This document shows positions 6,833 through 36,437 of a stretch of 64,000 nt of DNA, one piece after another. The DNA is from Haloferax massiliensis (GTDB taxonomy: Archaea; Halobacteriota; Halobacteria; Halobacteriales; Haloferacaceae): contig NZ_CSTE01000005.1 of assembly GCF_001368915.1 (NCBI RefSeq), forward strand, positions 124,001 through 188,000, written 5' to 3'. The translations under genes and the position numbers were made by a program. Under the pieces are notes generated by a model. That model did not search any database. It saw only the letters and a list, made by a program, of their open reading frames with translations, and was not told the origin of the DNA. Positions within the stretch are counted from its first letter, which is position 1. Each line of letters starts with the position of its first letter.

Positions 6833-7501
6833 CTAATACTGGAGACTCAGCGAGGGTCGCTGGATGAGCGCCCGCCGAATCAGCTGTTCGTGTCCGCGTC
6901 GAAGCCGCTGGGAGATCGCCTGGTGGGAGATACCAAATATGTTTGATAGCTCCGTGATGGTCGAATCGCGGGGGACGCCGTAGTAGCCGTGCCGGAAGGC
7001 GGTGACGAGCGTGTGGTACTGCGAGTCGGTGAGTCCGAACCGCATCGGGTTCGCAAGGTTCTCGGGCGAGACGATTCGTTCGACGTCGAACCGCTGGCCG
7101 GCGCGTCGCCACTGGTCGACGAGCGAACTGAGCGCGTTGCGGTCGGAGGCGAGGACGCGGACGACCCACTCGCCGTCGCGGCCGTACGCGCCGAGGACGG
7201 TGAGGCTGTCGTCGGCGAACAGTCGCATGAACTCGTCGGTGAGCGGGTCGAGACCGAGACGGTAGATACCGCCGTCAGTCGAGGGCGCGACGGGAGAGAT
7301 TTCGCGGACGCTCGGGTCGTCACGGAGCGACGGTTCGACCGGAGTCGAGTCGTCGCTTCGAAGCCACAGCAACGGGGAGAGCGTGGCCCCATCGAGTTGC
7401 ACAGAGCGAACCGGTTGCGCCTCGACGATGGGGTTGCGCGAGAGAACATCGTCGAGCGCGAACGCGGACGCTGGAACGCGAAGTGTAATGATGGTGCTCA
7501 C
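6833..7501 (-). CDS. Bat-type HTH_10 transcriptional regulator
   Basis: A 222-residue protein with the short Bat architecture: an N-terminal sensor-like half of about 150 residues and a C-terminal HTH_10 domain (GLTDSQYHTLVTAFRHGYYG near 163, then SNIFGISHQAISQRLRRGHE). Members bind DNA and regulate metabolic or bacterio-opsin genes. The start is GTG, giving the typical N-terminus VSTIITLRVPASAFAL. A perfect inverted repeat (GGCGGT AA ACCGCC, 7540-7553) lies between it and the next gene. Confidence 0.85.
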   Translation of the reverse strand: MSTIITLRVPASAFALDDVLSRNPIVEAQPVRSVQLDGATLSPLLWLRSDDSTPVEPSLRDDPSVREISPVAPSTDGGIYRLGLDPLTDEFMRLFADDSLTVLGAYGRDGEWVVRVLASDRNALSSLVDQWRRAGQRFDVERIVSPENLANPMRFGLTDSQYHTLVTAFRHGYYGVPRDSTITELSNIFGISHQAISQRLRRGHEQLIRRALIQRPSLSLQY

Positions 7502-7552: not shown

Positions 7553-8386
7553 TCACGAATCCGCCGACCGGCGTTCGACGAACCGGTCGCCGAGCGCGAC
7601 GCTTCCGTGGCCGAGGGCGACCCCGGCGACCACGTCGGTCCCCCAGTGAATCCCGAGGTACATCGTCGAGAACGCGATTGCGGACGCGAGGAGCGACGCG
7701 ACGACGGCCCACGCGGGGTACGTCTCTCGCGTCCGAATCGCAATCGCCGCCGCCGACACCGAAAGCGACGTGTGAAGCGACGGGAACACGTTCGTGTTTA
7801 CGTTCACCTCGCCGGTGAGAATCTGCGTCTGCGGATAGCTGCTGTAGAGGAGCGACTCGACCTGCCCCGGCAGGAGGTTACGCGGGCCGTAGGAGATAAA
7901 CAGGATATAGCAGGTCAGACCGATGGCGTAGTTCGCCGCGTACGTGACAGCGGTGAGTTTCAGCGGGCGGTCGTCGGCCGCCACGAAGTACGCGATGAAC
8001 GGGAACACGAGCAAGAAGACGTATCCCGAGAGATACACCGTCGAGAGGACGGCGGTGAGCGCCGGCGTGGCGAGCGACTGAACGGACCCGACGAAGTTCC
8101 CCTCGACGGCGTAGATGACGCCGGTGGCGTTCCAGCCCAGCGCCCACGAGAGCTCCGGACCCACGCCGCGGGCGACCTTGTTCACGAGGAGGACGACCGT
8201 CAGCAGGCCGAGGTACGGGGCCGCCTCGCGGAATCGACCCCTCCCCGAGCCGTACGCCCCCGCGAGGCGCGACGGGCCGACGATAGTGAGCGTCGCGACC
8301 GCCAACGCGATGGCGGCACCGCCGACGACGCGGAGGAGAACCGCGACGAGCGGCGAGACGTTAACCAGAGACTGTGTGGGATTCAT
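7553..8386 (-). CDS. PAP2-family membrane phosphatase
   Basis: A 277-residue multi-pass membrane protein from MNPTQSLVNVS. The PAP2 signatures are PSLHTSLSVS (motif C2, with the catalytic-support His) and STMYLGIHWGTDVVAG (motif C3, with the nucleophile His and Asp). Such enzymes dephosphorylate lipid phosphates or polyprenyl pyrophosphates at the outer membrane face. The ATG overlaps the end of the upstream substrate-binding protein by four bases (ATGA), so the two are translationally coupled. That suggests a joint role in surface lipid or glycan handling. Confidence 0.88.
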   Translation of the reverse strand: MNPTQSLVNVSPLVAVLLRVVGGAAIALAVATLTIVGPSRLAGAYGSGRGRFREAAPYLGLLTVVLLVNKVARGVGPELSWALGWNATGVIYAVEGNFVGSVQSLATPALTAVLSTVYLSGYVFLLVFPFIAYFVAADDRPLKLTAVTYAANYAIGLTCYILFISYGPRNLLPGQVESLLYSSYPQTQILTGEVNVNTNVFPSLHTSLSVSAAAIAIRTRETYPAWAVVASLLASAIAFSTMYLGIHWGTDVVAGVALGHGSVALGDRFVERRSADS

Positions 8387-10248
8387 TCTTGAATGAGGAG
8401 GGTGCCGTCGGTCGAGTAGGCGTACCCGGCGTCTTCGAACACCGACCGCGCTCGCTCCGCGTCGAGCGTGCCGGTCCCCGCGTCGCCGACGAAATCGAGT
8501 TCGGAGACGGTCTCGCGCCACGCGTCGTCGTCCGGGACGTACTGGGTGGTTTCGAGCGGCGAGGACGCGGGCCGGGCCTCGCTGCCGAACAGCGACTCCA
8601 CGAGGAACTCGCGGTCGACGAGTCGGGCGACCGCCCGGCGGAACCGGGGGTTCATAAACGGCGGCCGCCGGTGGTTGTAGCCGATGTGGTAACACCACTC
8701 GGGTCGGCTGGAGCGGACGGAGATGCCGGGTTCCTCCTCCGCGGCTTCCCTCGCGTCGGCCGACAGCGAGTTCGCCGTCGCGTCCGCCGCGTCGGCCGCG
8801 AGAAGCTCGACGGCGGCACCGTCGGACGGAACGACGTCGAACCGCAGCGAGTCGAACGAGAGGCCGCCGTCGAACCGGGACAGCCAGCCGTCGAGCGCGT
8901 CGTCGGTGGCGAGGAAGTGGTCCGCGAACGGCTCCATCGAAATCGACTCTCTGGCCGTCGTTCCCGTCACGCGAAGCGGGCCGCTCCCGACCGGAGAGAG
9001 GTTGTTCCGGACGAGCGCCTCAGTGACGTTGCCCCCGTCGAGCCACGACGCGCTCGTCGGGCGGGCGAACGGCTCCCAGACGTGCTCGGGGAGCACCGGA
9101 ATCGTCAGCGCGCGCGCCGCGACCGACCGGCTCACGTCGCCGAACCGAATCGTCGCCTCGCGGTCGGACGCGGCGTCGACCGAGTCGACGAGCGAGGCGC
9201 GGCCCCGGTACCGCGGCGACGGCACCGACTGGTCGAGCGACCCGAGCGCCGTGTCGGAGATGAACCGGAAGGTGAACGCCACGTCCGACGCCGTTATCGG
9301 CTCGCCGTCGTGCCACACGAGGTCGTCGCGGAGCCGGAGCGAAAGCGTCGTCGCGTCCCCGTCGGACCACTCCCACGACGCCGCCATCCACGGTCGCATC
9401 CGGTCGTAAATCGGACGGCCCAACGAGTCGTAGACGAGGTCGAGGAGCGTCCCGTCCGAGCGAAACGGCGTCGAAAGCGGGTTGAGGTTCTCCGTCGGGC
9501 GCGAGTCGTCAAGCGTCATGCGGAGCTCGTTAGCGGGGGTCGGCCCGTCGGTCGTCGTCGCGGACGTCGGCCGCTCGGTCGGTGTCGGGGTCGCGGACGG
9601 CGCGGCCGTCGACTCGGTCGGCGAGGCGGTCGCCGCCGTGGGGACTGTCCTCGCACCGAGATACCCCGTGAGGCTGTGGATTCCGACGCCGTCGGGCCAG
9701 TTGGCTCGCTCCGGCCGGGTCGCCTGCGCCGGCCGCGGGGCCGCGACGGGCGTGAACGGTTGGGCCTCCGCGACGCGCCGCTGAATCTCCGCGAGCGTCG
9801 CGGCGCGAACGGAGCCGGTCTCCGTCCGCTGTCGCTCCAGAAGCGAGTCCAACGACAGGTCGCCGTATCCGAACGGGTTTTGCCACCCGCGGCCCGGGCC
9901 GTAGCGAGAGTGGAGCAGGGGGCGGAGGAAGTCCGGGTCGCGCCGGAGCAGCAGGCGGGAGACGTAGATATCGAAGTCGTGGTTCGAGAGCACGTCGCGG
10001 AGGAGCTCCTCCCGGCTCATCGGAACCACGGTCGCCGCGATGCCGACCGTCTGGAGGCGCGTGGCGAGATAGCGGGCGAGCCTCGTCGCCATCGCGTCGG
10101 TGTCCGCGGGGACCGTTTTGACAGAGAGCGAAAGCGGCGTCCGTTCGTCGCGCGCGACCGTCGATTCCAGCTGTCGGACACACCCGCCGGTCAGGCCCGC
10201 GCCTGCGAGCGCCAAAACCGACCGTCTGGTTAGCCGTGTTGATGACAT
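8383..10248 (-). CDS. Circularly permuted SBP_bac_5-type solute-binding lipoprotein
   Basis: A 621-residue exported lipoprotein: a Tat-type start TRRSVLALAGAG and a lipobox ending at Cys23. Residues about 38-200 look like the C-terminal lobe of family 5 peptide-binding proteins (ARYLATRLQTVGIAATVV, then FDIYVSRLLLRRDPDFL). A Thr/Ser/Pro linker follows (about 203-238). Then comes the normal N-terminal part (MAASWEWSDG, LRDDLVWHDGEPITASDVAF) running on to VFEDAGYAYSTDGTLLIQE, where family members usually continue into the lobe that is here placed first. No permease or ATPase is adjacent. The following PAP2 gene overlaps it by 4 bases. The ligand is unknown. Confidence 0.85.
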   Translation of the reverse strand: MSSTRLTRRSVLALAGAGLTGGCVRQLESTVARDERTPLSLSVKTVPADTDAMATRLARYLATRLQTVGIAATVVPMSREELLRDVLSNHDFDIYVSRLLLRRDPDFLRPLLHSRYGPGRGWQNPFGYGDLSLDSLLERQRTETGSVRAATLAEIQRRVAEAQPFTPVAAPRPAQATRPERANWPDGVGIHSLTGYLGARTVPTAATASPTESTAAPSATPTPTERPTSATTTDGPTPANELRMTLDDSRPTENLNPLSTPFRSDGTLLDLVYDSLGRPIYDRMRPWMAASWEWSDGDATTLSLRLRDDLVWHDGEPITASDVAFTFRFISDTALGSLDQSVPSPRYRGRASLVDSVDAASDREATIRFGDVSRSVAARALTIPVLPEHVWEPFARPTSASWLDGGNVTEALVRNNLSPVGSGPLRVTGTTARESISMEPFADHFLATDDALDGWLSRFDGGLSFDSLRFDVVPSDGAAVELLAADAADATANSLSADAREAAEEEPGISVRSSRPEWCYHIGYNHRRPPFMNPRFRRAVARLVDREFLVESLFGSEARPASSPLETTQYVPDDDAWRETVSELDFVGDAGTGTLDAERARSVFEDAGYAYSTDGTLLIQE

Positions 10249-10309
10249 GTAGGGGAGGGCAGGTAACTGTCTTGGCGTGTGTCGCCGTTATTATCCGGGG
10301 ACTAAGTAG

Positions 10310-11782
10310 TCAGACTCCCAGAAAGAGCGGCCACGCGAGCAGGAGAACCCACAGGCAGACGGCCGCCGAAAGCGCGGTTCGACGGGGGGAAGACGACTCG
10401 AAGCGACGCTGTCCGACGACGGCGAGCGCCCCGAGCGCGACGAGCACGGCGAACCGATGGAGGACGATTTCGACCGGGACGACCGCGACCTGTATCGACG
10501 CGAAGTCGGCGACCAGCCCGACCCCGTAGCCGACGAACGCGACGCCGAACCACAGTTCCGGCCGGTAACCCCGTGGGAGCCGAACTGCGAGGACGACCGG
10601 AGCCGCGGCAAACACCGGGTAGAGCAGTCCGGCGACGACTTTCGGGTGGTTGGGGACGACGCTCTCGAAACCGAGCGCGGCCGACCGGACCAAAAGCGGG
10701 AGGGCGGCGAGCGCGACGAAGAGCGCGACGCCGCGCTGGAATCGGTAGTCGGCGAGGCGGGACCAGCGGAGGCGCTCGACGACCACGCCCATATCCATCC
10801 CGTCGCGTCGGGTGAACAGGGCGGCGAGACCCCCGACACCGACGAAGACGACGGCGAGTATCGAAAGGGCGTTTCCGACGCCAGCCGCCGTCGTCGTCGG
10901 GGGACCGAGCGCGGAGGCGGCGGCGTCGCGTTCGGGGTCGGCGCGCGCCGCGGCATCGCCCCGGTCAGTCGCCGATTCGACGGTCGCTGGACGGCGCAGG
11001 TCCTCCTTCGGGAGCGTCGAGAGTTGGGGCGGGCCGAGTTCGACGACCGACACCCAGCCGTCGGCGTCGATGATGCCGCCGTTGGCGAACCGCTCGCGGC
11101 GAACGTCGACGACGGTCGGCTGCCGCAGCAGGTCGCGCTCGACGACGTGCTGCGGGCCGGCCAGACTGGTCACCGTGTGTCGGAGCCGAAACCAGTCCCA
11201 GTAGTCACGGTGGGCCTGAATCGCCGTCCACGAGTCGTCCGGTGCCCCGCCGCCGTACAGGCGGAGGTGGATTCGGCTCCCGAAGTACGTCCCGTCGTGG
11301 AGCTGCATCGACTCCGCGATCCACAGCCCGCCCGAGTCTGCGGTGTCGACGAAGGTGAACCGGTCCGCGCCCGTGGCGGCCCCCCACGGGGCGTCAACCT
11401 CGTCGGTCGGTGCCTGTTCGGCGGACGCCTGTTGCCACGATTCGTTCGTCTCGTCCCACGTCGCGTCGCGCGAGTAGAGGAGAAGCGAGCGGACCCGCGC
11501 GGGGTTCCCCTCGACGACGAGGTTCACCGGGAGCGTCAGCGAGTCGAACGAGCGGTCGCGGCTGGTGAACGGCCAGAGCCTGTCGCCCCGTTCGCCGACG
11601 GCGACCAGTCGAACGTCGTCGACGGACTTCGGACCGTTCGGTGCCGACGCCGCCGCGACCGTCGACCCGCCCCCGCGGGCGTCGAAGTCGACGACGCTCG
11701 CAGTCGGCACCGCTGTCGTCGCCACAAGGAGGACGAGGCCGAGGACGACGAGGCCCTCGACCGCTCCGAGACGAGACGCCAT
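10310..11782 (-). CDS. Membrane protein with LssY_C-like extracellular domain
   Basis: The 490-residue protein has an N-terminal membrane helix (about 8-28), an external domain of about 230 residues and about six helices after residue 300. The external part has features recalling LssY C-terminal domains: LPVNLVVEGN, then a late GSRIHLRLYG and an Asp/His-rich ending HVVERDLL. LssY_C is often found near PAP2 phosphatases, and a PAP2 gene lies two genes away. The assignment is by motif memory and is tentative. It is divergent from the arylsulfotransferase gene. Confidence 0.55.
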   Translation of the reverse strand: MASRLGAVEGLVVLGLVLLVATTAVPTASVVDFDARGGGSTVAAASAPNGPKSVDDVRLVAVGERGDRLWPFTSRDRSFDSLTLPVNLVVEGNPARVRSLLLYSRDATWDETNESWQQASAEQAPTDEVDAPWGAATGADRFTFVDTADSGGLWIAESMQLHDGTYFGSRIHLRLYGGGAPDDSWTAIQAHRDYWDWFRLRHTVTSLAGPQHVVERDLLRQPTVVDVRRERFANGGIIDADGWVSVVELGPPQLSTLPKEDLRRPATVESATDRGDAAARADPERDAAASALGPPTTTAAGVGNALSILAVVFVGVGGLAALFTRRDGMDMGVVVERLRWSRLADYRFQRGVALFVALAALPLLVRSAALGFESVVPNHPKVVAGLLYPVFAAAPVVLAVRLPRGYRPELWFGVAFVGYGVGLVADFASIQVAVVPVEIVLHRFAVLVALGALAVVGQRRFESSSPRRTALSAAVCLWVLLLAWPLFLGV

Positions 11783-11921
11783 TGCGTCGTGTTCCCGGCC
11801 TCGGAACCCTAATTATTCCGTGCGTAAGGTCCGTTCGGGAACAGGTCGCGGCGGCAGGGCCCGACTCGCCCGCAGTTTAGCACCCCGATAGTAAGACCGT
11901 CCACCGACCGAGGGGTATGCA

Positions 11922-13271
11922 ATGGTCAAGCGGACGCATCTGCGAGTCGCCGCGGCAGTCGCCCTCCTCGTCTGCGCGGGCATCGTCGGGGCCGCGTACC
12001 TGAGCCGGCCGACCTCGGCGGTGGCGGACGCGACCGGCGAGAGCGCACGGGTCGCGCCCGCGAACGGGACGACGGTCATCGCGACCGATTCGAACACGTG
12101 GCTCGGCCGAGAGAGCGACGGGGCGCGAGCGAACGCCGAACTCGTCGCCTTCGGGGCCGACGGAGAGCGGCGCTACTACGACGACTCCCACACCCGTTAC
12201 TGGGACGTCGACCCCGTCGAGGGGACGAACGCGACGGTCGAGTACCTCTATGCGGACCACCTCACCGCCGACGAGTGCGGCGGCGAGAGCGTGTGTACGC
12301 GGAACGGCATCGAGCGCGTGAACCTCACTACCGGCGAGGTCGAAGGGATTTACAGCAGAGTGACCGCCGGGAAGCACTCGACGCGGTGGCACGACGCCGA
12401 CAGGCTGAGCGATTCGACGTACGTCGTCGCCGACATCGCCGCGGACCGCGTGTTCGTCGTGAACACGACGACGGAACTGGTCGAGTGGTCGTGGGACGCA
12501 CAGGCGGCGTTCGACCCCGCGACGACCGGCGGGCCGTACCCGTCCGACTGGACGCACCTCAACGACGTCGAGGTGCTCGAAAACGGGCTCGTTCAGGTCA
12601 GCCTCCGCAACCACGACAGGGTCGTGTACCTCGACCGCGACACCGGCCTCGTCGAGAACCGGACGCTCGGAGACGGCTCCCACGACGTCCTCTACGAGCA
12701 GCACAACCCCGATTACATCGCGAACCCGGACGGCGACGACGCCGTGCTCGTCGCCGACTCCGAGAACAACCGTCTCGTCGAATACCGCGACGACGACGGC
12801 GAGTGGGTCCGCTCGTGGGACTGGCAGGACGAACAGCTCCAGTGGCCGCGGGACGCGGACAGGCTCCCGAACGGGCACACGCTCGTGACGGACTCGAACG
12901 GGAACCGCGTGTTCGAACTGGACGAGACCGGCGACGTCGTCTGGAGCGTCCCCGTCGCGTTCCCCTACGAGGCCGAACGGCTCGGAACCGGCGACGAGAG
13001 CGCCGGCGGCCCGCCCGCGCACGAACTCGACCTCCGGAATCGGACGGCCGGAGGTCCGAGCGCCGGGGCCGGCGGCACGCCCCGGTCGGTTCTCCCGAAC
13101 CCCGTGGTGAACGCCGTCTACTACGTCCTCCCGCGGTGGATGGGGGTCTCCGAACTGCTGGTCGCCGGCCTCGCGCTCGGAATCGGACTCGCGTGGGCCG
13201 TCGCCGAACTGCGGTGGTTACCGTACCGCGTCTCGCTTACGAACCCGGTCTCCCTCCGAAAGCGGAACTGA
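11922..13271 (+). CDS. Arylsulfotransferase (ASST) family membrane protein
   Basis: The 449-residue protein has an N-terminal membrane helix (about 8-27), a beta-propeller body and a C-terminal helix (about 412-432). ASST-type repeats are clear: RWHDADRLSDSTYVVADI, WTHLNDVEVLENGLVQVSLR, YEQHNPDYI and WPRDADRLPNGHTLVTDSNG. The family transfers sulfate or acts on related conjugates. In haloarchaea sulfated sugars occur in surface glycans, so modification of exported glycan is the likely role. The next gene, a GT-C glycosyltransferase, begins 11 bases after its stop. Confidence 0.82.
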   Translation: MVKRTHLRVAAAVALLVCAGIVGAAYLSRPTSAVADATGESARVAPANGTTVIATDSNTWLGRESDGARANAELVAFGADGERRYYDDSHTRYWDVDPVEGTNATVEYLYADHLTADECGGESVCTRNGIERVNLTTGEVEGIYSRVTAGKHSTRWHDADRLSDSTYVVADIAADRVFVVNTTTELVEWSWDAQAAFDPATTGGPYPSDWTHLNDVEVLENGLVQVSLRNHDRVVYLDRDTGLVENRTLGDGSHDVLYEQHNPDYIANPDGDDAVLVADSENNRLVEYRDDDGEWVRSWDWQDEQLQWPRDADRLPNGHTLVTDSNGNRVFELDETGDVVWSVPVAFPYEAERLGTGDESAGGPPAHELDLRNRTAGGPSAGAGGTPRSVLPNPVVNAVYYVLPRWMGVSELLVAGLALGIGLAWAVAELRWLPYRVSLTNPVSLRKRN

Positions 13272-13282
13272 GAGTCAACGAT

Positions 13283-14986
13283 ATGAGTTCAACGACCGAC
13301 GACACGTCGAACGGTCTCGACCCCGCGGCCCCGAACCGAGAGAACGCGTTCACCGACGGCGTTCCCGGCCTCGGCCGCGAGAGCCACGCGTGGTTCGCCA
13401 TCGCCATCGTCGCCGGACTCGTCGTCTCGGCGGCGTACGTGACGACCCACGACTACCCGGCCTACGGGTCCGGGCTGTATCTCGAAATCGCGGCGCAGAT
13501 TCGGGCCGGCGGCTACGCGCTCCCGACTTCGATTCCGTACTACGACGGCGGGATTCCGTTCGCGTACCCGCCGCTCCAGTTCTACGTGGTCGCGTTCCTG
13601 ACCGACCTCGGCGTCTCGGGGATGACGCTCAGTCTCGTCCTCCCGGCTATCGTGACGGTCCTCTACCTCGTGCCGTACTACGGAACCGCCCTCGAACTCC
13701 TCCCGACGCGGCGACAGGCGGGGGTCGCGACGGCGGTTCTCGCGGTCAGCCCCCCGGTCCTGCAGTGGCACCTCTCGGCCGGCGGCATCGTCCGCGCGTC
13801 CGCGTTCTTCCTGTCGCTCTGCGGGGTCTACGTCGGGGCGAGGCTGTTCCGCCGCGGCACTCGCCGCCCGCTGTGGGTCGGGTCCGGTATCATCTTTTTC
13901 GGGCTGACCGTCCTCTCGCATCCGACGTACACCGTCTTCTTCGGGGTCAGTTGGCTCGTCCTCTACGCGATGCTCGACCGGACGCTCCCCGGTCTCGTCA
14001 GCGGAGCTCTCGTGGCGCTGGGCGGCCTCGTCCTCGCCGCGCCGTGGTGGGTCAACGTCGTCTCCGTCCACGGCGTGGGGGCGTTTGCGGGGGCGGCGGG
14101 CAGTCACAGCGGCATCGCCGGCGGCGTCAGTCGACTCCTCGACCAGTTCGTCTACCCGCTGGAACCGACCGTCGTCACGGTGTTCTTCCTCGCGAGTTTC
14201 GCCGCCGCGGGCGTGCTCGTCTCCCAGCGGAAGTTCACGCTTCCGCTGTGGCTCTTCGTCTGCGCGTACGCCATCGGGAAGGAGCGCTTCCAGTTCGTCG
14301 CCGGGGCGATGATGATATCGACGGTGCTGTTCGGCGTCGTCGTACCGCGGCTGACGGACGGCGTTCGGGGGTCGTTCGATAACCGGCAGGTGATGGCCTC
14401 GACGCTGGTCGTGGTCCTCGTCGTCGGGACGTGCCTCGGCGGGTTCTACGCCGCGAGCGGCCTCGGTGCAGCACACCACGGCAGTCCGAGCCTCCCCCCG
14501 TTCATCGACGCCGACGACCGGGAGGCGATGGAGTGGGCGAGCAACAACACCGACGAGGACGCGTCGTTCGTCGTGCTCTCGGACGCCGCCGAACTGTTCC
14601 CCCACTACGCCGAGCGGAGCATCCTCGTGGGACCGTGGGGCGTCGAATGGAAGAGCCCGGACAGGTACTACGACCAGATTTCGGCGTTCAAAACGGCGAG
14701 CACCTGCGGGAACGCGACCTGCGTCACCGAGTCGATGGAGTCCGTCGACGCCTCCCCCGACTACCTCTACGTCCCCCGCGGGACGTACACCGTCCGGGGG
14801 CTCCAAGAAGACGGGACCGAACGGCTCCGCAGGTCGCTCGCCGACAGTCACCGATACGAGCGAGTCTACGGAAACGACGGGGTCGTGGTGTACGCGGTCG
14901 AGCCGAGCGACACCGACAGTCCGACCGCCGAAACGGCCGGTTTGTCAGACGCTAAGCGCCGTCGACCGGGATTATCCGGCCGATAG
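13283..14986 (+). CDS. GT-C type membrane glycosyltransferase (GT39/ArnT-like)
   Basis: A 567-residue polytopic protein with about 12 hydrophobic helices. Its first outward loop carries the acidic DYPAYGSGLYLEIAAQI and YYDGGIPFAYPPLQFY segments, as in ArnT/PMT-type enzymes that use polyprenyl-phosphate sugars. A soluble C-terminal domain follows (about 440-560). The start MSSTTDDTS at 13283 was chosen because the longer upstream frame is an antisense-like Arg-rich shadow of the arylsulfotransferase. It probably glycosylates surface lipid or protein together with the neighbouring sulfotransferase. Confidence 0.8.
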   Translation: MSSTTDDTSNGLDPAAPNRENAFTDGVPGLGRESHAWFAIAIVAGLVVSAAYVTTHDYPAYGSGLYLEIAAQIRAGGYALPTSIPYYDGGIPFAYPPLQFYVVAFLTDLGVSGMTLSLVLPAIVTVLYLVPYYGTALELLPTRRQAGVATAVLAVSPPVLQWHLSAGGIVRASAFFLSLCGVYVGARLFRRGTRRPLWVGSGIIFFGLTVLSHPTYTVFFGVSWLVLYAMLDRTLPGLVSGALVALGGLVLAAPWWVNVVSVHGVGAFAGAAGSHSGIAGGVSRLLDQFVYPLEPTVVTVFFLASFAAAGVLVSQRKFTLPLWLFVCAYAIGKERFQFVAGAMMISTVLFGVVVPRLTDGVRGSFDNRQVMASTLVVVLVVGTCLGGFYAASGLGAAHHGSPSLPPFIDADDREAMEWASNNTDEDASFVVLSDAAELFPHYAERSILVGPWGVEWKSPDRYYDQISAFKTASTCGNATCVTESMESVDASPDYLYVPRGTYTVRGLQEDGTERLRRSLADSHRYERVYGNDGVVVYAVEPSDTDSPTAETAGLSDAKRRRPGLSGR

Positions 14987-15014
14987 TAAACACCCCTCGG
15001 GGAGAGCGTGAGGT

Positions 15015-16349
15015 ATGTTCGCACCATCACGAATCCGCGGCTCGTACGGGACCCACGTGACCGCGAAACTCGCCCTCAAGGCCGGTCGCGCCCTCGCGGG
15101 GACGGGCGACGAAATCGTCGTGGGCCACGACCCGAGCGACAGCGCTCGGCTCCTCGCGGACGCCGTCGCACTCGGGGTCTGTGAGTGCGGTGGCACCGTC
15201 CATCGACTCGGCCCGGTTGCGAGTCCGACCGTCTCCCACGGCGTGAGGCGACTCGGCGGCGACGCCGGCGTGGCGGTGACGACCGTCAGCGACCCCGACG
15301 ACGACACCGCGCTGAAACTGTTCGACGACGACGGCTCGCGCCTCTCGTGGGAGCGACAGAGCAGGGTCGTCCGCCGGGTCAACGGCTCGTCCGCCGAAGT
15401 CGCCTCGTGGGACGAAATCGGGGCGGAGCGTCGCTGGGACGACGCCACGACGCGTCATCTCGACCATCTCTGCGACTCTCGACCGTCGTTTTCCGACACG
15501 CGCGCCGTGGTCGCCGTCGGCGAGCGGGGCGACGGCATCGTGGCCGAGGCGCTCGAACGCCTCGGCTGCGACGTCGAGCGCCTCACTGACGCCGCGGACG
15601 ACTCGTTCCCGCGACGCCGAGTGGCCGACGGCGACGACGTCTGCCGGACGCTCCGGCGGACCGTCGCGACCACGGACGCCGATATCGGTCTCGCCCACGA
15701 CGCCGACGCCGACCGCCTCGTCGCCGTCGACGAGACCGGCGAGGTCGTCGGCGGGGACACGCTCTTGGGGCTGTTCGCGCGGGAAGCGGTCCGCGATGCC
15801 GACGGCGACGCGCGCGTCGCCGTCCCGCTGGAGGCGAGTCGACGCATCGAGGAGGTCGTCTCCGACGCGGGCGGGAGCATCGTGCGAGTCGAGATGGACG
15901 GAATCCCGGGGTCCGGACCGGCGTCGAGCGCGGACGTCGTCTTCGGCGGCGAGCCGAGCGGCGTCTATCAGTGGCCGGACGAGTCGCCCTGCCCGGACGC
16001 GGCGCTGTCGGCGGTTCGGCTCGCGCGCCTCGTCGACGAGGGAGCGCCGCTCTCCGAACAGGCGGGCGACGTCGCGGCGTACCCGCTGTTTTTCGACTCG
16101 GTCGCGGTCGACAACTGCGCCCGCGAGATGACGCGGCTCGCGACCGAGAGCCAAGCGCGGTTCGACGACGTTCGAACCGACGACGGCATCTTCGTCGAAC
16201 GAGACGACGCGTGGTTCGTCGTCAGGGCGAGCCGAACCGAGCGCGTCCTTCGCGTGACCGTCGAAGGAACGTCCCGAAACAGTGCGAAACAGTTGTTCGA
16301 AGCGGTGTGGGCGCTCGTGGCCGACGAGCGAGCGACGCTCGTCGCCTGA
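15015..16349 (+). CDS. Phosphohexomutase-family protein with altered catalytic loop
   Basis: A 444-residue member of the alpha-D-phosphohexomutase family (phosphomannomutase/phosphoglucosamine mutase). The metal loop DADADR (229-234) and the sugar-binding GGEPSG (311-316) are intact. The catalytic loop, normally TASHNP with a phosphorylated Ser, reads TTVSDP at 89-94, so the usual Ser position is Val and a Ser sits one place later. It may be a variant or inactive mutase. It follows the glycosyltransferase by 28 bases, which suggests sugar-phosphate supply for the same pathway. Confidence 0.85.
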   Translation: MFAPSRIRGSYGTHVTAKLALKAGRALAGTGDEIVVGHDPSDSARLLADAVALGVCECGGTVHRLGPVASPTVSHGVRRLGGDAGVAVTTVSDPDDDTALKLFDDDGSRLSWERQSRVVRRVNGSSAEVASWDEIGAERRWDDATTRHLDHLCDSRPSFSDTRAVVAVGERGDGIVAEALERLGCDVERLTDAADDSFPRRRVADGDDVCRTLRRTVATTDADIGLAHDADADRLVAVDETGEVVGGDTLLGLFAREAVRDADGDARVAVPLEASRRIEEVVSDAGGSIVRVEMDGIPGSGPASSADVVFGGEPSGVYQWPDESPCPDAALSAVRLARLVDEGAPLSEQAGDVAAYPLFFDSVAVDNCAREMTRLATESQARFDDVRTDDGIFVERDDAWFVVRASRTERVLRVTVEGTSRNSAKQLFEAVWALVADERATLVA

Positions 16350-16398: not shown

Positions 16399-17028
16399 AT
16401 GCCGGCGCGCTCCGAATCGCGGCTCGAAATCGTGGGACACGAAGACGGGAGCCAAAGCGCGTACGACGCGGTCGAGACCGGCGACGAGCTGGTGAGCTGG
16501 TCGCGGGCGTACTGCCGCCGCGCGGCGAGCGACTACGACTTCAGCGTGGACCTACACCGCGTCGAGTGGGAAGTGTCCACCCGCGCGAAGCGCCGAGCGG
16601 CCGCGGTGAAAACCCCGACCGTCGACGACGCCGCGGTCGGCGAACCCAAGCAGTGGGAGAGCACGTCGGCGCGCGCGGACCGACTCGGCGGCGCGCCGAC
16701 GTGTACCATGTCGCTGTCGTGGCGGGCGTTCGAGTCGTTCGACCGCGCGGAGTGGTCGGCGACGCTCCGACACGAACTCGTCCACGTCGAGCAGTTTCAG
16801 GCGTTCGGCGCGACCGACCACGGGCCGGCGTTCAAGCGCCGCGCCGAGGCGGTCGACGCGCCGGTTCGCGTCCGCCGGTTCGCGGAGCCGAAGTACACCC
16901 TCACCTGCGAGGACTGCAGCGCGGACGTGGCCTACCGCTACCGCGAGTGCAAACTGGTTCGCAGGTCGTCGGCCTATCGCTCCGCATGCTGCGATGCGCC
17001 GCTGGACTGTCGAAAACGAGAGGGATAG
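16399..17028 (+). CDS. SprT-like zinc metalloprotease
   Basis: This is a 209-residue protein. The SprT signature HELVHVEQF (about 122-130) gives the zinc ligands and the catalytic Glu. The C-terminal part has four Cys-containing steps (TCEDC, REC, ACC and DC), consistent with a small zinc-binding module. SprT/Spartan proteins are linked to proteolysis, including DNA-protein crosslinks in eukaryotes; the archaeal role is unproven. The start MPARSESRL was taken because it leaves the upstream gene intact. Confidence 0.85.
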   Translation: MPARSESRLEIVGHEDGSQSAYDAVETGDELVSWSRAYCRRAASDYDFSVDLHRVEWEVSTRAKRRAAAVKTPTVDDAAVGEPKQWESTSARADRLGGAPTCTMSLSWRAFESFDRAEWSATLRHELVHVEQFQAFGATDHGPAFKRRAEAVDAPVRVRRFAEPKYTLTCEDCSADVAYRYRECKLVRRSSAYRSACCDAPLDCRKREG

Positions 17029-17629: not shown

Positions 17630-18319
17630 ATGCGACACGTCCCAGGAACCTTCTCGATAGCGGCGCGCGACCCCGAGGCGAACGTCTACGGCGCGGCGGT
17701 GACGACCGGCACCGTCGCCGTCGGCGCGACCTGTCCCTACGTGAGCGCCGGCGGCGCGGCGGTCACGCAGTCGTACACGAAGCCCGAACACGGCCGCGAC
17801 GCGGTCGCCCGCGCCGAAGGCGGCGAGCGCATCGACGACGCCTTCGAGGCGCTCCTCGCCGCCGACGACCACGCCGCCTACCGGCAGGTCCACGGCGTCG
17901 GCGCGGGCGGCGAGTTCGCCTTCACCGGCGACGAGTGCGTCTCGTGGGCCGGCCACCGCGTCGGCGACGACTACACCGTCGCGGGCAACATGCTCGCCGG
18001 CGAGGCGGTCGTCGAGGCGACCGCCGAAGCCTACGAATCCGCCGACGGCGACATGGCCGAGCGACTCGTCTCGGCGCTCGAAGCCGGCGAGGCGGCGGGC
18101 GGCGACGACCGCGGCGAGCTGAGCGCCGCGCTGCTCGTCCACGCGCCGACGCCGGAGTTCTACCACAACCTCCGGGTCGACCTCTCCGCCGAACCGGTGG
18201 CCGACCTGCGCGACCTGCTCGCGGAGGCGCGGCGCGCGAAAGACCAGATTCGCCGCGAGACGGACGCGCAGTTCGGCGACTACCCCGACGAGATTCTCGA
18301 CTTCGGCGTCAAGTACTGA
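17630..18319 (+). CDS. DUF1028 family protein
   Basis: The 229-residue protein starts MRHVPGTFSIAARDPEANVYGAAVTTG and contains VGATCPYVSAGGAAVTQSYT, the typical N-terminus of DUF1028, a family thought to have an Ntn-hydrolase-like fold. The activity is unproven. It is convergent with the Dpp-type transporter operon and near an M20 amidohydrolase, an association that favours a role in hydrolysing imported peptides or amides. Confidence 0.85.
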   Translation: MRHVPGTFSIAARDPEANVYGAAVTTGTVAVGATCPYVSAGGAAVTQSYTKPEHGRDAVARAEGGERIDDAFEALLAADDHAAYRQVHGVGAGGEFAFTGDECVSWAGHRVGDDYTVAGNMLAGEAVVEATAEAYESADGDMAERLVSALEAGEAAGGDDRGELSAALLVHAPTPEFYHNLRVDLSAEPVADLRDLLAEARRAKDQIRRETDAQFGDYPDEILDFGVKY

Positions 18320-18363
18320 CCCGACTTCGCGTCAAATACTGAAAAGAGGCCGCGCGGGCGGCG

Positions 18364-20517
18364 TCAGTCCGAGTCGGCCGGACTGGTCTCCGCGCGCTTC
18401 GACGGCGTGATAAACGAGTCGCGCTGGCTCATCTCCTCATCCGATAGGTGACAGGAGATGTAGTGGTCGCCGCCGTCGACCGCTTCGAGTTCCGGGAGGT
18501 CCCGCTCGCAGACGTCGCCGATTTTCTTCGGGCAGCGCGTCTGGAACGGACAGCCCGACGGCGGGTTGATGGGGCTCGGAACGCTCCCTTCGAGGAGGAT
18601 GCGGTCCGTCTCGCGGTCCGGGTTCGCGTGGGGGACCGCGGACAGGAGGCTCTCCGTGTAGGGGTGGAACGGCGGCGAGAACACCTGTTCGATGCTCCCG
18701 AACTCCGCTATCTTCCCGAGGTACATCACGGCCACGCGGTCGCAGATGTGCCGGATGACGCCGATGTTGTGCGAGATGAACAGGAACGAGATGTTCTCGT
18801 CGTCCTGAATCTCGTTCAGGAGGTTGAGAATCTGCGCCTGCACGCTCACGTCGAGCGCCGACACGGGCTCGTCGCAGACGATGAGCTTCGGTTCGACCGC
18901 GAGCGCGTGCGCGATGGCGACGCGCTGTTGTTGGCCGCCGGAGAACTCGTGGGGGTACTTGCTCGCGGCGGCCCGCGAGAGGCCGACGCGTTCGAGCAGG
19001 TCGCCCACGCGTTCGCGCTTTTCCTCGCCGGTGGCGATGCCGTGTTTCTCCATCGCGCGACCGACGATTTGGCCGACGGTCTTCCGCGGGTTGAGCGAGC
19101 TCTGGGGGTCCTGGAAGATCATCTGCATCTCGCGGCGCAGACTCCGAATCTCCGAGGAGCCGAGCTCGTGGAGCGGCTGGCCCTCGAAGTACACCTCGCC
19201 GTCGGTCGGTTCGAGGAGGCGGAGCGCGGTGCGAGCGACCGTGGACTTCCCGCAGCCGGACTCGCCGACGAGCCCGACGGTCTCGCCGGGGTAGACGTCG
19301 AAGCTCACGTCGTCGACGGCCTTGACGTGCCGCCGCTCGACGGTCGGCAGGCCGCCGCCCTCCCACGAGAGGTGGACGTTGCCGAAGACGCCCTCGCCGG
19401 CGTCGAAGTACTTCTTCAGGTTCCGCACCTCGAACAGCGGCTCGCCGGTGCGGTCGATGTCGCGGCGGCCGGTCCCCGCTTCGGGGACCGTGCTCTCCGA
19501 GAGGTCGAGGTCGTCGGCGTGGAGACACGCCGCGCGAGAGGAGTCGTCGCCGACGGCGTCGAGCGACGGGTCGCCGCCGGTCCGGCACGCTTCGGTGGCG
19601 TGGGGACACCGCGGCGCGAAGTTACAACCGCTCGGGAGGTTCCCGAGGTCGGGCATCGCGCCGTCGAGCGTCGGCAGTTCGTCGTAGTCGGTGTCGACCT
19701 CCGGGATGGAGTCGATGAGCGCGCGGGTGTAGGGGTGTCGCGGGCGGTCGAACAGGTCGCCGAGTTCGGCCGTCTCCACGAGGTTCCCCGCGTACATCAC
19801 GCCGACGTGGTCGCACGTCTGGGCGACGACGCCGAGGTTGTGGGTGATCATCAGCACGGCCGTCCCCTCGCGCTCCTGCATCTCGTTGAGCAGGTCGAGA
19901 ATCTTCGCCTGCGTCGTCACGTCGAGCGCGGTGGTCGGCTCGTCGGCGATGATGAGGTCCGGCTCGCAGGAGAAGCCGATGGCGACGAGGACGCGCTGGC
20001 GCATCCCCCCGGAGAACTCGTGGGGGTAGTCGTCGACGCGCTCTTCGGCGTCGGGGATACCGACGTCGTCCATCGATTCGACGGCGAGCCGGCGTGCCTC
20101 TGACTTGGAGACGTCCTGGTGGCGGCGAATCGTCTCCGTGATTTGCTCGCCGACGGTCATCACCGGGTTGAGCGACGACATCGGGTCCTGCGGAATCATG
20201 GCGATGCGGTTGCCGCGGATGTCGCGCATCTCGGCGTCAGTCTTCTGCAGGAGATCTTCCCCATCGAAGACGACCTGCCCGCCGGTAATCTCGCCGGGCG
20301 AGTCGATGAGGCGCATGAGCGACCGCGCCGTCACGGACTTGCCCGCGCCCGACTCGCCGACGAGACCCATCGTCTCGCCGCGGTCGAGTGAGAACGACAC
20401 CTCGTTTGAGGCGACGACGGGGCCGCCCTCGGTGCGGAACTCGGTTCTGAGTCCGCGCACGTCGAGCAGCGGGCCGTCGTCGGCCTCGCCGTCGGTCGCG
20501 GTGCTGGGAGCGCTCAT
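18364..20517 (-). CDS. Fused DppD-DppF ABC transporter ATPase
   Basis: A 717-residue protein with two complete nucleotide-binding domains. First: Walker A GESGAGKSVT, signature FSGGMRQR, Walker B LIIADEP. Second: GESGCGKST, FSGGQQQR, LIVCDEP. Each ends with the Cys-containing oligopeptide-transporter tail (FAPRCPHATEAC and FQTRCPKKIGDVC). It powers import by the two permeases encoded upstream, with a 4-base overlap to DppC. Fusion of the two ATPases into one chain is common in haloarchaea. It is the last gene of the operon. Confidence 0.93.
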   Translation of the reverse strand: MSAPSTATDGEADDGPLLDVRGLRTEFRTEGGPVVASNEVSFSLDRGETMGLVGESGAGKSVTARSLMRLIDSPGEITGGQVVFDGEDLLQKTDAEMRDIRGNRIAMIPQDPMSSLNPVMTVGEQITETIRRHQDVSKSEARRLAVESMDDVGIPDAEERVDDYPHEFSGGMRQRVLVAIGFSCEPDLIIADEPTTALDVTTQAKILDLLNEMQEREGTAVLMITHNLGVVAQTCDHVGVMYAGNLVETAELGDLFDRPRHPYTRALIDSIPEVDTDYDELPTLDGAMPDLGNLPSGCNFAPRCPHATEACRTGGDPSLDAVGDDSSRAACLHADDLDLSESTVPEAGTGRRDIDRTGEPLFEVRNLKKYFDAGEGVFGNVHLSWEGGGLPTVERRHVKAVDDVSFDVYPGETVGLVGESGCGKSTVARTALRLLEPTDGEVYFEGQPLHELGSSEIRSLRREMQMIFQDPQSSLNPRKTVGQIVGRAMEKHGIATGEEKRERVGDLLERVGLSRAAASKYPHEFSGGQQQRVAIAHALAVEPKLIVCDEPVSALDVSVQAQILNLLNEIQDDENISFLFISHNIGVIRHICDRVAVMYLGKIAEFGSIEQVFSPPFHPYTESLLSAVPHANPDRETDRILLEGSVPSPINPPSGCPFQTRCPKKIGDVCERDLPELEAVDGGDHYISCHLSDEEMSQRDSFITPSKRAETSPADSD

Positions 20518-21413
20518 TCTATCGCCTCCACTTTGGGGTCGAGCACGTCACGCAGTCCGTCGCCGAGCATGTTGAACCCGACGACGGCGATGCCGATAGC
20601 CAGCGCGGGGAACAGCAACATCCACGGCGCGGTCTCCATGAAGCCGCGACCGGTGTTAATCATCAGCCCCCACGACGGCCGCGGGGGTTGCGCGCCGAGA
20701 CCGAGGAACGACAGGCTCGCCTCCGCGAGGATGGCAAAGGAGACGTTCAGCGACCCCTGCACCAGCATGGGTGCCATGCAGTTCGGGAACACCTCGCTGA
20801 AGACGATGCGCGAGTCGCTCTCGCCGCGGGCGACGGCGGCCTCGACGTACGCCTCGTTGCGTTCGGCCAGCGCCGCGCTCCGCGAGACGCGGGCGATGTA
20901 GGGCGTGTAGACGAACGCCAGCGCGATGATGACGTTGCTCAAGTCCGGGCCGAGGACGACGAGGAGCGTGAGCGCGAGCAACACCGGCGGGAACGCCATC
21001 GCGGCGTCCATGACGCGCATCAGTATCTCGTCGGTCAGGCCACCGGCGTAACCGGCGACGACGCCGATGACCGCCCCGACGGCGAGCGCGCCGGAGATAG
21101 CGCCGAAGCCGACGTACAGCGAGATGCGGCTCCCCATGACGACGCGGCTGAAGATGTCGCGGCCGAGGTCGTCGGTGCCGAACGGGTGTTCGACCGACGG
21201 GGCCTGCGAGCGGTCTTCGATGTTCGTCTGCTCGATGGGGTACGGCGCGATGAGCGGCGCGAAGACGGCGACGAGCACGAGCATCACCACGATGGAAAAG
21301 CCGAGCATCGCCTTCGTGTTACTGCGGAACTTCCGGACGAACCGGGCGATACGGTCGCGCTGTGACTGCGTGATGGTGAACCGACCGCGGTCGGTCTCCT
21401 GTTCGGTCGCCAT
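20514..21413 (-). CDS. Dipeptide/oligopeptide ABC transporter permease, DppC-like
   Basis: A 299-residue inner permease of the DppC/OppC type with the N-terminal extension helix and the EAA-type loop SAALAERNEAYVEAAVARGE that contacts the ATPase. The segment HPFGTDDLGRDIFSRVVMGS is the family signature. It starts in a TGATG junction with the stop of the DppB gene and overlaps the ATPase gene by 4 bases, so the operon is tightly coupled. Confidence 0.93.
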   Translation of the reverse strand: MATEQETDRGRFTITQSQRDRIARFVRKFRSNTKAMLGFSIVVMLVLVAVFAPLIAPYPIEQTNIEDRSQAPSVEHPFGTDDLGRDIFSRVVMGSRISLYVGFGAISGALAVGAVIGVVAGYAGGLTDEILMRVMDAAMAFPPVLLALTLLVVLGPDLSNVIIALAFVYTPYIARVSRSAALAERNEAYVEAAVARGESDSRIVFSEVFPNCMAPMLVQGSLNVSFAILAEASLSFLGLGAQPPRPSWGLMINTGRGFMETAPWMLLFPALAIGIAVVGFNMLGDGLRDVLDPKVEAIE

Positions 21414-22372
21414 CAGTCGTCACCTCCGTAGCGGATACGGGGGTCGAAGTACGCGTACAGCAGGTCTGCGGCGAAGTTCGAGAACATGTAGATGAGTGCG
21501 ACCACGAGGATGCACCCCTGAATCAGGGGGATGTCGCGGCTCTGAATCGCGGTCAGCGTCAACCGACCGATGCCGGGCCAGAAGAACACCTCTTCGAGCA
21601 CGACGACCCCGCCGAACGCGTAGCTGAACTGGAACGCGATGACCGTGATGACGGGGATGATTGCGTTCTTGAGCGCGTGCCTGAGGACGATGACCCGTTG
21701 GCTCATCCCCTTCGCACGCGCGAGATTGATGTACTCCTCGCTGAGCACCTCCAGCATCGACGACCGGGTCATCCGCATGATGTAGGCGGTGAGCGCGAAG
21801 CCCATCGCCCCCGCGGGGAGGGCGAGTCGCGTGAGCGACCCGACGAGGTCCTCGCTCGGGGAGACGTACCCCCCGGTCGGAAAGAGGTTCAGCCAGACGG
21901 CGAACACCAAAATGAACACCAGCCCCCACAGGAAGATGGGCATCGAGATGCCGACGAAAGCGAACATCGAGGCGCTCACGTCGGGCGCTTCGTTCTGGTT
22001 GACGGCGGCGTAGACGCCGAGCGGAACCGACAGCACGACGGCGACGAGCGTCGCGGCGACCGCGAGCATCATCGACCGCGGCAGGCGCTCGGCGATGAGT
22101 TGCGCCACGGGCTCGCCGAATCGGAGCGATTCGCCCATGTTCCCCTGGAGGAGCCCGACGACCCAGTCGATGTACTGCACGTACAGCGGGCGGTTGAGTC
22201 CCAGTTGGGTTTGGAGCGCTTCGAGCGATTGTTCGGTCGCGTTGGGGCCCAAGATGAGCAGGGCCACGTCACCGGGCAGGATGTTGGTGACGGCGAAGGC
22301 GATGAGCGTGACGAAAAACAGCGTCACCGCCATGAACCCGACGCGCCGAACGACGTAGTTGTACATCGACAT
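21413..22372 (-). CDS. Dipeptide/oligopeptide ABC transporter permease, DppB-like
   Basis: A 319-residue permease with about six helices. It begins MYNYVVRRVGFMAVTLFFV after two residues and has the DppB landmarks LLQGNMGESLRFGEPV and the EAA loop EYINLARAKGMSQRVIVLRH. It shares one base with the start of the DppC gene. Sixteen bases separate it from the substrate-binding protein upstream, so all four genes form one operon. Confidence 0.93.
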   Translation of the reverse strand: MSMYNYVVRRVGFMAVTLFFVTLIAFAVTNILPGDVALLILGPNATEQSLEALQTQLGLNRPLYVQYIDWVVGLLQGNMGESLRFGEPVAQLIAERLPRSMMLAVAATLVAVVLSVPLGVYAAVNQNEAPDVSASMFAFVGISMPIFLWGLVFILVFAVWLNLFPTGGYVSPSEDLVGSLTRLALPAGAMGFALTAYIMRMTRSSMLEVLSEEYINLARAKGMSQRVIVLRHALKNAIIPVITVIAFQFSYAFGGVVVLEEVFFWPGIGRLTLTAIQSRDIPLIQGCILVVALIYMFSNFAADLLYAYFDPRIRYGGDD

Positions 22373-22387
22373 TGTGTGGAATCCCTG

Positions 22388-24061
22388 TTAGCGGTCGAGC
22401 CAGTTGTCGCCGAACTGCAGCGTCGATCCGTCGGGCGCGCCGATGTCGCCTTTGTACTGCGAGGCGGCTCCGTAGAGGCTCGGCTGCCACCACAGGAAGA
22501 GGTGGCCGGCGCGGTCCTCGTGGAGAATCTCCGTCGCCTGGTGGTAGAGTTCGGCGCGCTCCTGTTCGTCGTAGATGGTCCTCGCCTCCTCGACGAGCGC
22601 GTTGTAGTCCTCGTTCACCCAGTTGGTGAAGAAGAACGCCCCGTTGGGGTGCAGGAACTTGTAGAACGACACGTCGGGGTACCAGAGCGCGAGGTAGGAG
22701 CTCGTCGTCGCCTGGAAGTCGCGGTTGGAGTAGACGTCAGAGAGCCACGTGCTCCACGTGATCTGCTGGATTTCGAGGTTGATGCCGACCTCGGCGGCGT
22801 CGGCGGCGATGACCTCCGCGGCCTGCACCTGCGTCGGGTAGGACTGCGGAATCTTGAACGTCGCCGTGAAGCCGTCGGACATGCCGGCGGCGTCGAGGTG
22901 CTCCTGTGCCTTGTCGAGGTCGCGTGGGCGAGGTTCGATGTCCGGGTTGACCCACGGGCTGCCGGGCGTCGCCGGGGACGCGGTGGTCTGACCGGTGCCG
23001 TAGAGGGCCGCCTCGGCGACCTTCTCCTTGTCGATGGTGTAGTCGAGCGCGAGGCGGGCGTCCCGGTTGTCGAAGGGAGCCACGTCGCAGTTCAGGCCGA
23101 GGTAGACGAGCGATTTCGGGAACTGCTTCTCGAATCGAACGTCGGGGGCCTGCTCGACGCGGGAGACGTCCTTCGGCGCGATGCCGTTGATGAAGTCGTA
23201 CTCGCCGGCGAGGAACGACTGGAGGCGGACGCTCGGGTCCGGAACCTCGCTCTTGACGATGGTGTCGATGAACGGGCCGTCCTCGTCGGACGCGCCCCAG
23301 TAGTCCTCGTTGCGCGTCATCGTGAACGAGGTCTCGATCTCCCGGCTCTCGAACTTGTACGGGCCGGTCCCGATGGGTTCTTCGACCATGTCCTTCTCGG
23401 CGTTCTCGGCGGGCATGACCGACAGTTCCGCCGTCGCCATCTTGGCGAGGAACGGCGCGAACGGCTCGGTGAGTTGGACTTCGAACGTGTAGTCGTCGGG
23501 GGCGCGAAGCTCCTCGACGTAGTCGAAGAAACCGGTGGCGAGGTAGTCGCCGTTCTGGACGCGCTCGTAGCTCGCGAGCACGTCGGCCGAGGTCATCTCC
23601 TCGCCGTTGTGGAAGGTGACGCCCTCCCGGAGGTTGAACGTCAGGACCGTGTTGTCGTCGGACTGCTCCATCGACTCCGCGAGGTGCGGCTGGATGGAGT
23701 AGTCGTCCTGCAGCGCGACGACTTCCTCGTAGATGTTCTCCAAGACGCGCTTGGAGGCCGCCGAGGTGTCGATGTGCGGGTCGAGACCCTGCACCGGCAC
23801 CGCGCCGCCCCACTGGAGCGTCCCGCCCTGCTTCCCACCACTTGCCGCGGTCGTGTCGGTGCTCTCCGTGTCGCCGCCTTCGTCCGTGGAGCCCGAACCT
23901 TCGGTCGTGCCGTCGTCGGAACCGCCGCCCGTACAGCCGGCGAGCGCCACCGCGCCGGTCGTCGCCGCCGCCCCGAGGAAGGTACGGCGGTCGAAACGAC
24001 TGCGACGCGTACCGTCGCCGGTGCTATCGGAGGAATCGCTCCCCTTGCCATTCTCTTGCAT
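22388..24061 (-). CDS. SBP_bac_5 solute-binding lipoprotein of the Dpp-type transporter
   Basis: From MQENGKGSD this 557-residue lipoprotein has a Tat signal (DRRTFLGAAATTGAVALAGC) and lipobox Cys, an acidic Thr/Gly/Ser spacer, and the normal family 5 order: LQWGGAVPVQGLDPH, FNLREGVTFHNGEEMTSADV, then EHLDAAGMSDGFTATFKIPQ and the C-terminal lobe. This unpermuted order contrasts with the paralogue at 8383-10248. The ligand may be peptides or N-carbamoyl compounds, judged from the adjacent hydrolase. An ATG 18 codons upstream is less likely because it would precede the Tat region with non-signal sequence. Confidence 0.9.
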   Translation of the reverse strand: MQENGKGSDSSDSTGDGTRRSRFDRRTFLGAAATTGAVALAGCTGGGSDDGTTEGSGSTDEGGDTESTDTTAASGGKQGGTLQWGGAVPVQGLDPHIDTSAASKRVLENIYEEVVALQDDYSIQPHLAESMEQSDDNTVLTFNLREGVTFHNGEEMTSADVLASYERVQNGDYLATGFFDYVEELRAPDDYTFEVQLTEPFAPFLAKMATAELSVMPAENAEKDMVEEPIGTGPYKFESREIETSFTMTRNEDYWGASDEDGPFIDTIVKSEVPDPSVRLQSFLAGEYDFINGIAPKDVSRVEQAPDVRFEKQFPKSLVYLGLNCDVAPFDNRDARLALDYTIDKEKVAEAALYGTGQTTASPATPGSPWVNPDIEPRPRDLDKAQEHLDAAGMSDGFTATFKIPQSYPTQVQAAEVIAADAAEVGINLEIQQITWSTWLSDVYSNRDFQATTSSYLALWYPDVSFYKFLHPNGAFFFTNWVNEDYNALVEEARTIYDEQERAELYHQATEILHEDRAGHLFLWWQPSLYGAASQYKGDIGAPDGSTLQFGDNWLDR

Positions 24062-35582: not shown

Positions 35583-35605
35583 AAAATTGGAGTCAAACAA
35601 CTCAG

Positions 35606-36151: not shown

Positions 36152-36437
36152 TATTCATTATCTGCGACAAGGTCGAGGAGACAGAAGCAAAGATGAGGAC
36201 GGTATTTCATGGACGCTTCTATGAAGCAAACAAGCTCAAAGAAACTTTCGCCGATATTGAGTTCAGAGATGTTGAAATCATTGACGAAGATGGCCCAACT
36301 ATCCTTCACGCCGTAGAATAGACACACCTGCTCTGTATCAAGCGTAGCAGTGTCTAAACTCTCTTTGAGCAGGTCTGAGAGTAGCATAGGAAACTAGCTC
36401 TTCGACCTGTTTATCGGTTAACTAGACGGTGCCCAAA

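Follow-up and report, generated by a model that had tools for sequence, protein, structure and literature searches.

A circularly permuted family 5 solute-binding protein coupled to a PAP2-family membrane protein in haloarchaea

The described systems closest to the locus analysed here are the solute-binding proteins (SBPs) of family 5 (OppA/DppA/NikA/AppA type; PF00496), the PAP2_3 enzymes (PF14378), the LssY_C proteins (PF14067), which are associated with PAP2 in bacteria, and the mycobacterial lipoprotein LpqW, an SBP with the family 5 fold that is tied to lipid-linked glycan synthesis. As described in a review, LpqW channels AcPIM4 for lipomannan synthesis, and after this step, GT-C enzymes mannosylate following a speculated flip across the membrane (PMC3229680). 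The locus in question lies at positions 7553-16349 of a stretch of 64,000 nucleotides of the Haloferax massiliensis genome (the whole stretch is hereafter called the window) and includes genes for an SBP, a PAP2 protein and a 490-amino-acid membrane protein without a known family, P490 (Table 1). The SBP belongs to the same sequence family as the family 5 proteins and shares their fold over both of its parts but differs in that the order of the parts is swapped, in that no linked ATP-binding cassette (ABC) permease was seen in haloarchaea and in its coupling to PAP2; LpqW, in contrast, matches in the canonical order. We know of no PAP2 partner of LpqW. The PAP2 protein shares the domain and the active-site pattern of the PAP2_3 enzymes, with relatives annotated as ‘inositol phosphorylceramide synthase' in Haloarcula, and differs from them in having an SBP as a partner.

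The SBP represents a naturally occurring circular permutation of the family 5 fold and carries a lipoprotein signal of the twin-arginine translocation (Tat) type. It matches SBP_bac_5 (PF00496) with 151.1 bits against a cut-off of 32.4, but along the chain the halves are swapped relative to the canonical lobe order. When phmmer is run against the PDB, residues 262-574 align to the front and residues 56-169 to the back of 5isu, and likewise with 6i3g, the second match per chain being weak if taken alone. All 23 PDB sequences matched at E 0.1 or better by a profile of the N-terminal part (A3, built from 36 sequences) are aligned at chain residue 340 or later, and for a profile of the C-terminal part (A4, from 35 sequences), the best stretch ends by residue 381 among the best 60 of the 100 sequences matched at E 1e-5. 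In an AlphaFold model of the protein (pLDDT 86.4, pTM 0.84), residues 236-621 mainly fit the first 326 to 403 residues of solved SBP chains according to VIA, the best fit being 4oet (Z 22.1, root mean square deviation (rmsd) 4.0, 326 residues). The original prediction, made from the sequence alone, had guessed correctly that this protein is permuted. As controls, the same two profiles give the canonical order in 22 other open reading frames (ORFs) and in the transporter-linked SBP of the window itself (22388-24115); the comparison of order covers ORFs matching both profiles, namely, 69 permuted ones in 50 loci and 22 canonical ones, with 14 more matching through the C-terminal part only.

The break point falls after the helix ending in ‘...F..AGYRY' and before the strand ‘LSLSVKTVP'. 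The arginine pair and the lipobox cysteine are invariant in all 37 aligned permuted SBPs; start codons were picked partly by this motif, and the count of 39 of 40 sequences that carry it is biased accordingly. The possibility that the permutation is an artefact of gene calling was considered and rejected, given that the frames are open in independent genomes and plasmids, the haloarchaeal sequences form a clade with a support of 1.0, and the canonical SBPs show the opposite order. One copy, on a Salinigranum rubrum plasmid (L240, about 7947-9717), is split over two frames and annotated as two genes, which reflects either a broken gene or a sequencing frameshift. Among the titles and beginnings of abstracts covered by our literature search, which left most subscription journals outside its coverage, neither a natural permutant of SBP family 5 nor a module of the kind described here was found; several of the papers retrieved concern engineered sensors.

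Among 99 genomes of the order, 56 contain a strong match to the SBP, and the permuted order is visible in 55 of these, with no row for the N-terminal part in the remaining one (G010). In a sample of 120 genomes from the phylum, all 10 matches at 1e-40 come from the same order; 90 of the genomes without a match in this sample, of whatever order, are unlisted. In a scan of named genomes, taken as the best 80 matches, at least 50 of 79 loci are permuted, at least 47 of them haloarchaeal, in, for example, Halorubrum, Natrinema, Natrialba, Halorientalis, Natronomonas, Halorussus and Halobacterium. The three others come from metagenome-assembled genomes of Gemmobacter (L190, a 3-kb contig), Thermoproteota (L191) and Marsarchaeota (L204). 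A tree of 41 sequences unites the haloarchaeal SBPs in one clade (support 1.0), pairs the Thermoproteota and Marsarchaeota proteins with each other (0.957) and places the Gemmobacter protein elsewhere; its deep nodes are weak, and the 41 rows are those left after short matches and roughly four fifths of the loci L142-L189, which are haloarchaeal, had been removed. Because these three lineages do not group together, the permutation may have more than one origin. The Marsarchaeota SBP carries a hydrophobic C-terminal segment beyond the break point.

The haloarchaeal permuted SBPs are closely coupled to PAP2. Among 102 distinct proteins (104 minus 2 duplicates; the two underlying genome sets may still contain near-identical species), 83 are followed directly by PAP2 on the same strand, with a median gap of 4 nucleotides, 71 of the 83 gaps being within 25 nucleotides and 34 of the gene pairs touching or overlapping. 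In 12 more cases, PAP2 is the next gene upstream, in a tandem SBP-PAP2-SBP arrangement, and in seven it is neither, although in one of these (L187) it lies one predicted ORF further. Mere inherited synteny was rejected as an explanation of this adjacency, given that the other neighbours vary among the loci and that the phyletic profiles hold for unlinked genes. In addition to the PF14378 match, the window protein matches PF01569 (35.8 versus 27.2 bits) and is accordingly a member of the PAP2 superfamily. Across the family, the GPRN and PSLH motifs, H247 and D251 are invariant in all 29 sequences, as is H205; by the catalytic pattern as we assume it, H205 and H247 are the catalytic histidines. 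Since the active-site residues are invariant, the protein is predicted to have activity, either as a phosphatase of lipid phosphates or as a head-group transferase.

The third component, P490, is the next gene upstream of the SBP in 16 of the 102 cases. In the 99 genomes, the SBP was detected in 56, PAP2 in 55 and P490 in 53 (E < 1e-30, < 1e-40 and 0.001, respectively, thresholds that were fixed after the tables had been seen). SBP and PAP2 occur together in 55 genomes, with a single case of the SBP without PAP2 (G015, which is 76% complete) and none of PAP2 without the SBP; SBP and P490 co-occur in 51 genomes, and all three genes in 50. None of 20 000 within-family shuffles reached the observed SBP-PAP2 or SBP-P490 overlap. 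The three genes track each other even when they are unlinked, and PAP2 can adjoin P490 where the SBP stands alone (G070 and G023). The P490 model (pLDDT 73.3, pTM 0.70) shows a single helix followed by an exported alpha/beta domain and, at the C-terminus, a helix bundle. At E 0.1, neither Pfam nor NCBIfam gives a match for the window protein, and the name ‘LssY_C-like' that it had been given in the original prediction is therefore weak: PF14067 is matched by two of 23 P490 relatives, with a best E of 7.8e-4, and by nothing in genome G000 or in any of 20 other genomes, and the additional helix bundle sets P490 apart from the LssY_C proteins.

With respect to transport, no linked ABC permease was seen for the haloarchaeal permuted SBPs: no DppB or DppC match is present within four predicted genes of any of the 104, and an ABC ATPase match is present within this range in five; all eight neighbouring genes were covered for 90 of the 104, the other 14 stretches ending before four genes on one side. 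Because the protein is exported, anchored and closely coupled to PAP2 rather than to a transporter, it most likely presents a substrate. We propose, tentatively and with a probability of roughly 0.4, that SBP, PAP2 and P490 form a three-part module in which the exported lipoprotein hands a lipid-linked or phosphorylated substrate to the PAP2/P490 membrane enzyme, in the manner of LpqW and not as part of an ABC importer. The SBP would be attached to the membrane from the outside, close around the head group of a lipid-linked or phosphorylated compound and deliver this group to PAP2, which would then remove or transfer the phosphate-linked head group, with P490 holding the two proteins together or binding lipid. 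In those genomes where genes for an arylsulfotransferase (ASST)-like protein and a GT-C-like glycosyltransferase are divergent from the module, the product or carrier may be used in glycosylating, and perhaps also in sulfating, a glycolipid or glycoprotein of the cell surface. The parallel with LpqW is meant as a likeness of working rather than of membership. LpqW (2grv) is among the 23 PDB matches of profile A3 (E 8.4e-6) and fits the C-terminal part of the SBP with Z 20.0 and rmsd 3.8 over 327 residues.

Several observations weigh against this proposal. LpqW is one of many SBPs matched, ranking 31 in the structural fit, and it is not among the best 60 of the 100 matches of profile A4. Six of the 102 SBPs have no PAP2 nearby (L111, L117, L119, L129, L131 and L135), although all six genomes encode PAP2 elsewhere; five of the 99 genomes have the SBP without P490 and two have P490 without the SBP; and neither Foldseek (at E 0.001) nor VIA (at a Z of at least 8) finds a match for the P490 model. 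Finally, outside the haloarchaea, all three permuted SBPs adjoin ABC transporter genes, two ATPases and two permeases in Marsarchaeota, a permease in Thermoproteota and an ATPase in Gemmobacter, so that the permuted fold can go with import. It is conceivable, then, that the haloarchaeal protein too is an orphan receptor serving a Dpp-type ABC importer encoded elsewhere, with PAP2 acting as an ecto-phosphatase that trims phosphorylated nutrients before capture; some of the matched family 5 structures hold sugar phosphates or phosphodiesters (AccA with agrocinopine), and the window contains a Dpp operon at a distance of about 8 kb. This operon already has a canonical SBP of its own, however, and the dearth of ABC genes around the 104 haloarchaeal proteins, together with the tracking of the SBP by PAP2 and P490 across genomes, makes the import reading unlikely, albeit plausible.

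A sensory role, in which binding of an external ligand to the SBP would be relayed by P490 to PAP2 activity or to the neighbouring helix-turn-helix (HTH) gene, as in some SBP receptor systems, draws on the exported domain and helix bundle of P490 and on the HTH_10-type regulators that follow PAP2 in the window, on the Haloferax gibbonsii plasmid pHGLR2 and in Haloarcula sp. JP-L23; nevertheless, family searches found no kinase or known signalling domain in P490, most of the neighbourhoods listed show no HTH match, and we regard this role as quite improbable. The suggestion of the original prediction that all six genes of the locus make up one pathway, here for a sulfated surface glycolipid or glycoprotein, is supported in so far as the gene order is kept on pHGLR2, the SBP, ASST and GT-C genes co-occur at nine loci and the presumed active-site residues of the ASST-like protein are invariant. 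It falters on the distribution of the genes, since the conserved unit is P490-SBP-PAP2, found in 50 of the 99 genomes as opposed to 19 for GT-C, and the mutase is present at only three of the nine loci; with no ASST structure matched either, a single pathway appears improbable. A bolder extension of the three-part module, namely, a new archaeal surface-lipid system in which the permuted SBP abandoned ABC transport to serve as the substrate-presenting subunit of a PAP2-P490 enzyme, this enzyme shifting phosphate-linked head groups from one surface lipid to another or removing them from a glycan carrier, and in which some versions, several of these being plasmid-borne, have a GT-C/ASST cassette that glycosylates and sulfates the product, is rather unlikely to hold in full. 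A natural permutant conserved in many haloarchaeal genera and linked with lipid phosphatases in place of a transporter would illustrate the takeover of an import receptor for the assembly of membrane lipids or glycans. The linked profiles of the three genes offer a genetically testable entry to archaeal surface biosynthesis, in particular to the chemistry of lipid carriers or head groups at the outward side of the membrane, the enzymes of which are, to our knowledge, largely unidentified.

Table 1. Features of the locus and its immediate surroundings in the window
Feature	Positions	Strand	Basis or remark
HTH_10 regulator adjoining PAP2	6833..7501	-	PF04967, 54.3 bits
PAP2_3-family membrane phosphatase/phosphotransferase (predicted), 277 aa	7553..8386	-	PF14378, 61.1 bits vs 27; active-site pattern
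Circularly permuted SBP_bac_5 protein, 621 aa	8383..10248	-	Tat-type lipoprotein signal: RR at 8-9, lipobox Cys23
C-terminal part of the SBP, corresponding to the first two thirds of canonical family 5 SBPs	8386..9534	-	profile A4; VIA fit of model residues 236-621
N-terminal part of the SBP, corresponding to the last third of canonical family 5 SBPs	9664..10143	-	profile A3
P490, membrane protein without known family, 490 aa	10310..11782	-	N-terminal helix, exported alpha/beta domain, C-terminal helix bundle
Divergent intergenic region	11783..11921	.	139 bp between divergent starts
ASST-like exported beta-propeller protein, 449 aa	11922..13271	+	PF14269 and PF05935 above cut-off
GT-C-like glycosyltransferase, 567 aa	13283..14986	+	family conserved; relative annotated family 39
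Phosphohexomutase-family protein, 444 aa, nearest to archaeal GlmM	15015..16349	+	four PGM_PMM domains above cut-off

The six ORFs of the original prediction all exist, and their types point to exported lipid or glycan chemistry, as had been proposed; they are, however, arranged as two divergent sets of three and not as a single run, and a single operon was therefore rejected. Transcription proceeds on the minus strand from P490 through the SBP and PAP2 to the HTH_10 gene, and on the plus strand from the ASST-like gene through the GT-C-like and phosphohexomutase genes to an SprT-like gene (about 16399-17028). The start of PAP2 is most likely at 8386, an ATG overlapping the stop codon of the SBP, and not at the listed GTG. 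The HTH_10 protein is a candidate regulator. The window sits on a 326-kb contig, which is probably a megaplasmid because pHGLR2 of H. gibbonsii LR2-5 (323 kb) has the genes from the Dpp operon through to the HTH gene in identical order, the six genes being 82-90% identical. A Haloarcula plasmid carries five of the six, without the mutase, at 37-61% identity, and the conservation of the order on both plasmids indicates that the grouping is more than chance.

The ASST/GT-C half of the locus is optional. ASST and GT-C are divergent beside a permuted SBP at nine loci, namely, the window, pHGLR2, two plasmids of Haloarcula sp. JP-L23, Salinigranum rubrum, Halobaculum halophilum and the genomes G031, G041 and G074, so that the objection that such genes fail to co-occur in other haloarchaea does not stand; the mutase accompanies them in the window, on pHGLR2 and in G031. 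In Halorussus halobius, GT-C is found beside the SBP, along with P490, without ASST, and in G090, a GT-C fragment at a contig end adjoins the SBP. Among the 99 genomes, GT-C is present in 19, ASST in 53 and the mutase family in all. In three genomes (G029, G014 and G057), GT-C follows a glycosyltransferase-2 protein, which also has an LPG_synthase_TM region, and a flavin oxidoreductase, as judged by the Pfam matches of the G029 copies; these neighbours would fit sugar-lipid chemistry.

Of the names given to these three genes in the original prediction, that of arylsulfotransferase stands on two Pfam models above their cut-offs (PF14269, 32.3 versus 27 bits; PF05935, 30.6 versus 24.2 bits), the activity being putative; counting against the name, a phmmer search of the PDB at E 1 found no ASST structure and mostly retrieved NHL-repeat propellers. 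H157, H212, N214, R229 and H261 are invariant in all 12 members of this family, a set that we take to resemble the known ASST active site. For the GT-C-like protein, no Pfam or NCBIfam model, and hence no curated GT-C family, is matched above cut-off; the label relies on the motifs of the window gene and on one relative that is annotated as a ‘glycosyltransferase family 39 protein'. The phosphohexomutase label agrees with the four PGM_PMM domains, and the closest type is archaeal GlmM, although the score against the archaeal GlmM model TIGR03990 (285.9 bits) is below the cut-off of 439. Mutases of this family usually read TASHNP, and because the window protein has VTTVSDPDDDTALKLF at this position, its phosphoserine loop looks altered; going by sequence, it may not be an ordinary active mutase.

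At two of the loci where the SBP has no PAP2 nearby (L129 and L135), its gene overlaps one for a YdjM-family membrane protein (PF04307, 61.0 bits versus 29 for the L135 copy), and such proteins are found near the permuted SBP in L102, L135 and L239. The Dpp-type operon of the window (17630-24115) encodes a fused two-ATPase protein and a canonical SBP beside a DUF1028 gene and, over the part compared, is 94-100% identical to its counterpart on pHGLR2. Further along the window, the region 34000-46000, with a G+C content of 0.48-0.58 compared with about 0.66 around it and three DDE transposase matches, is a patch rich in insertion sequences, and a protein of 1220 amino acids with a PQQ-type beta-propeller and PKD domains, encoded at 53189-56851, is probably a surface protein.

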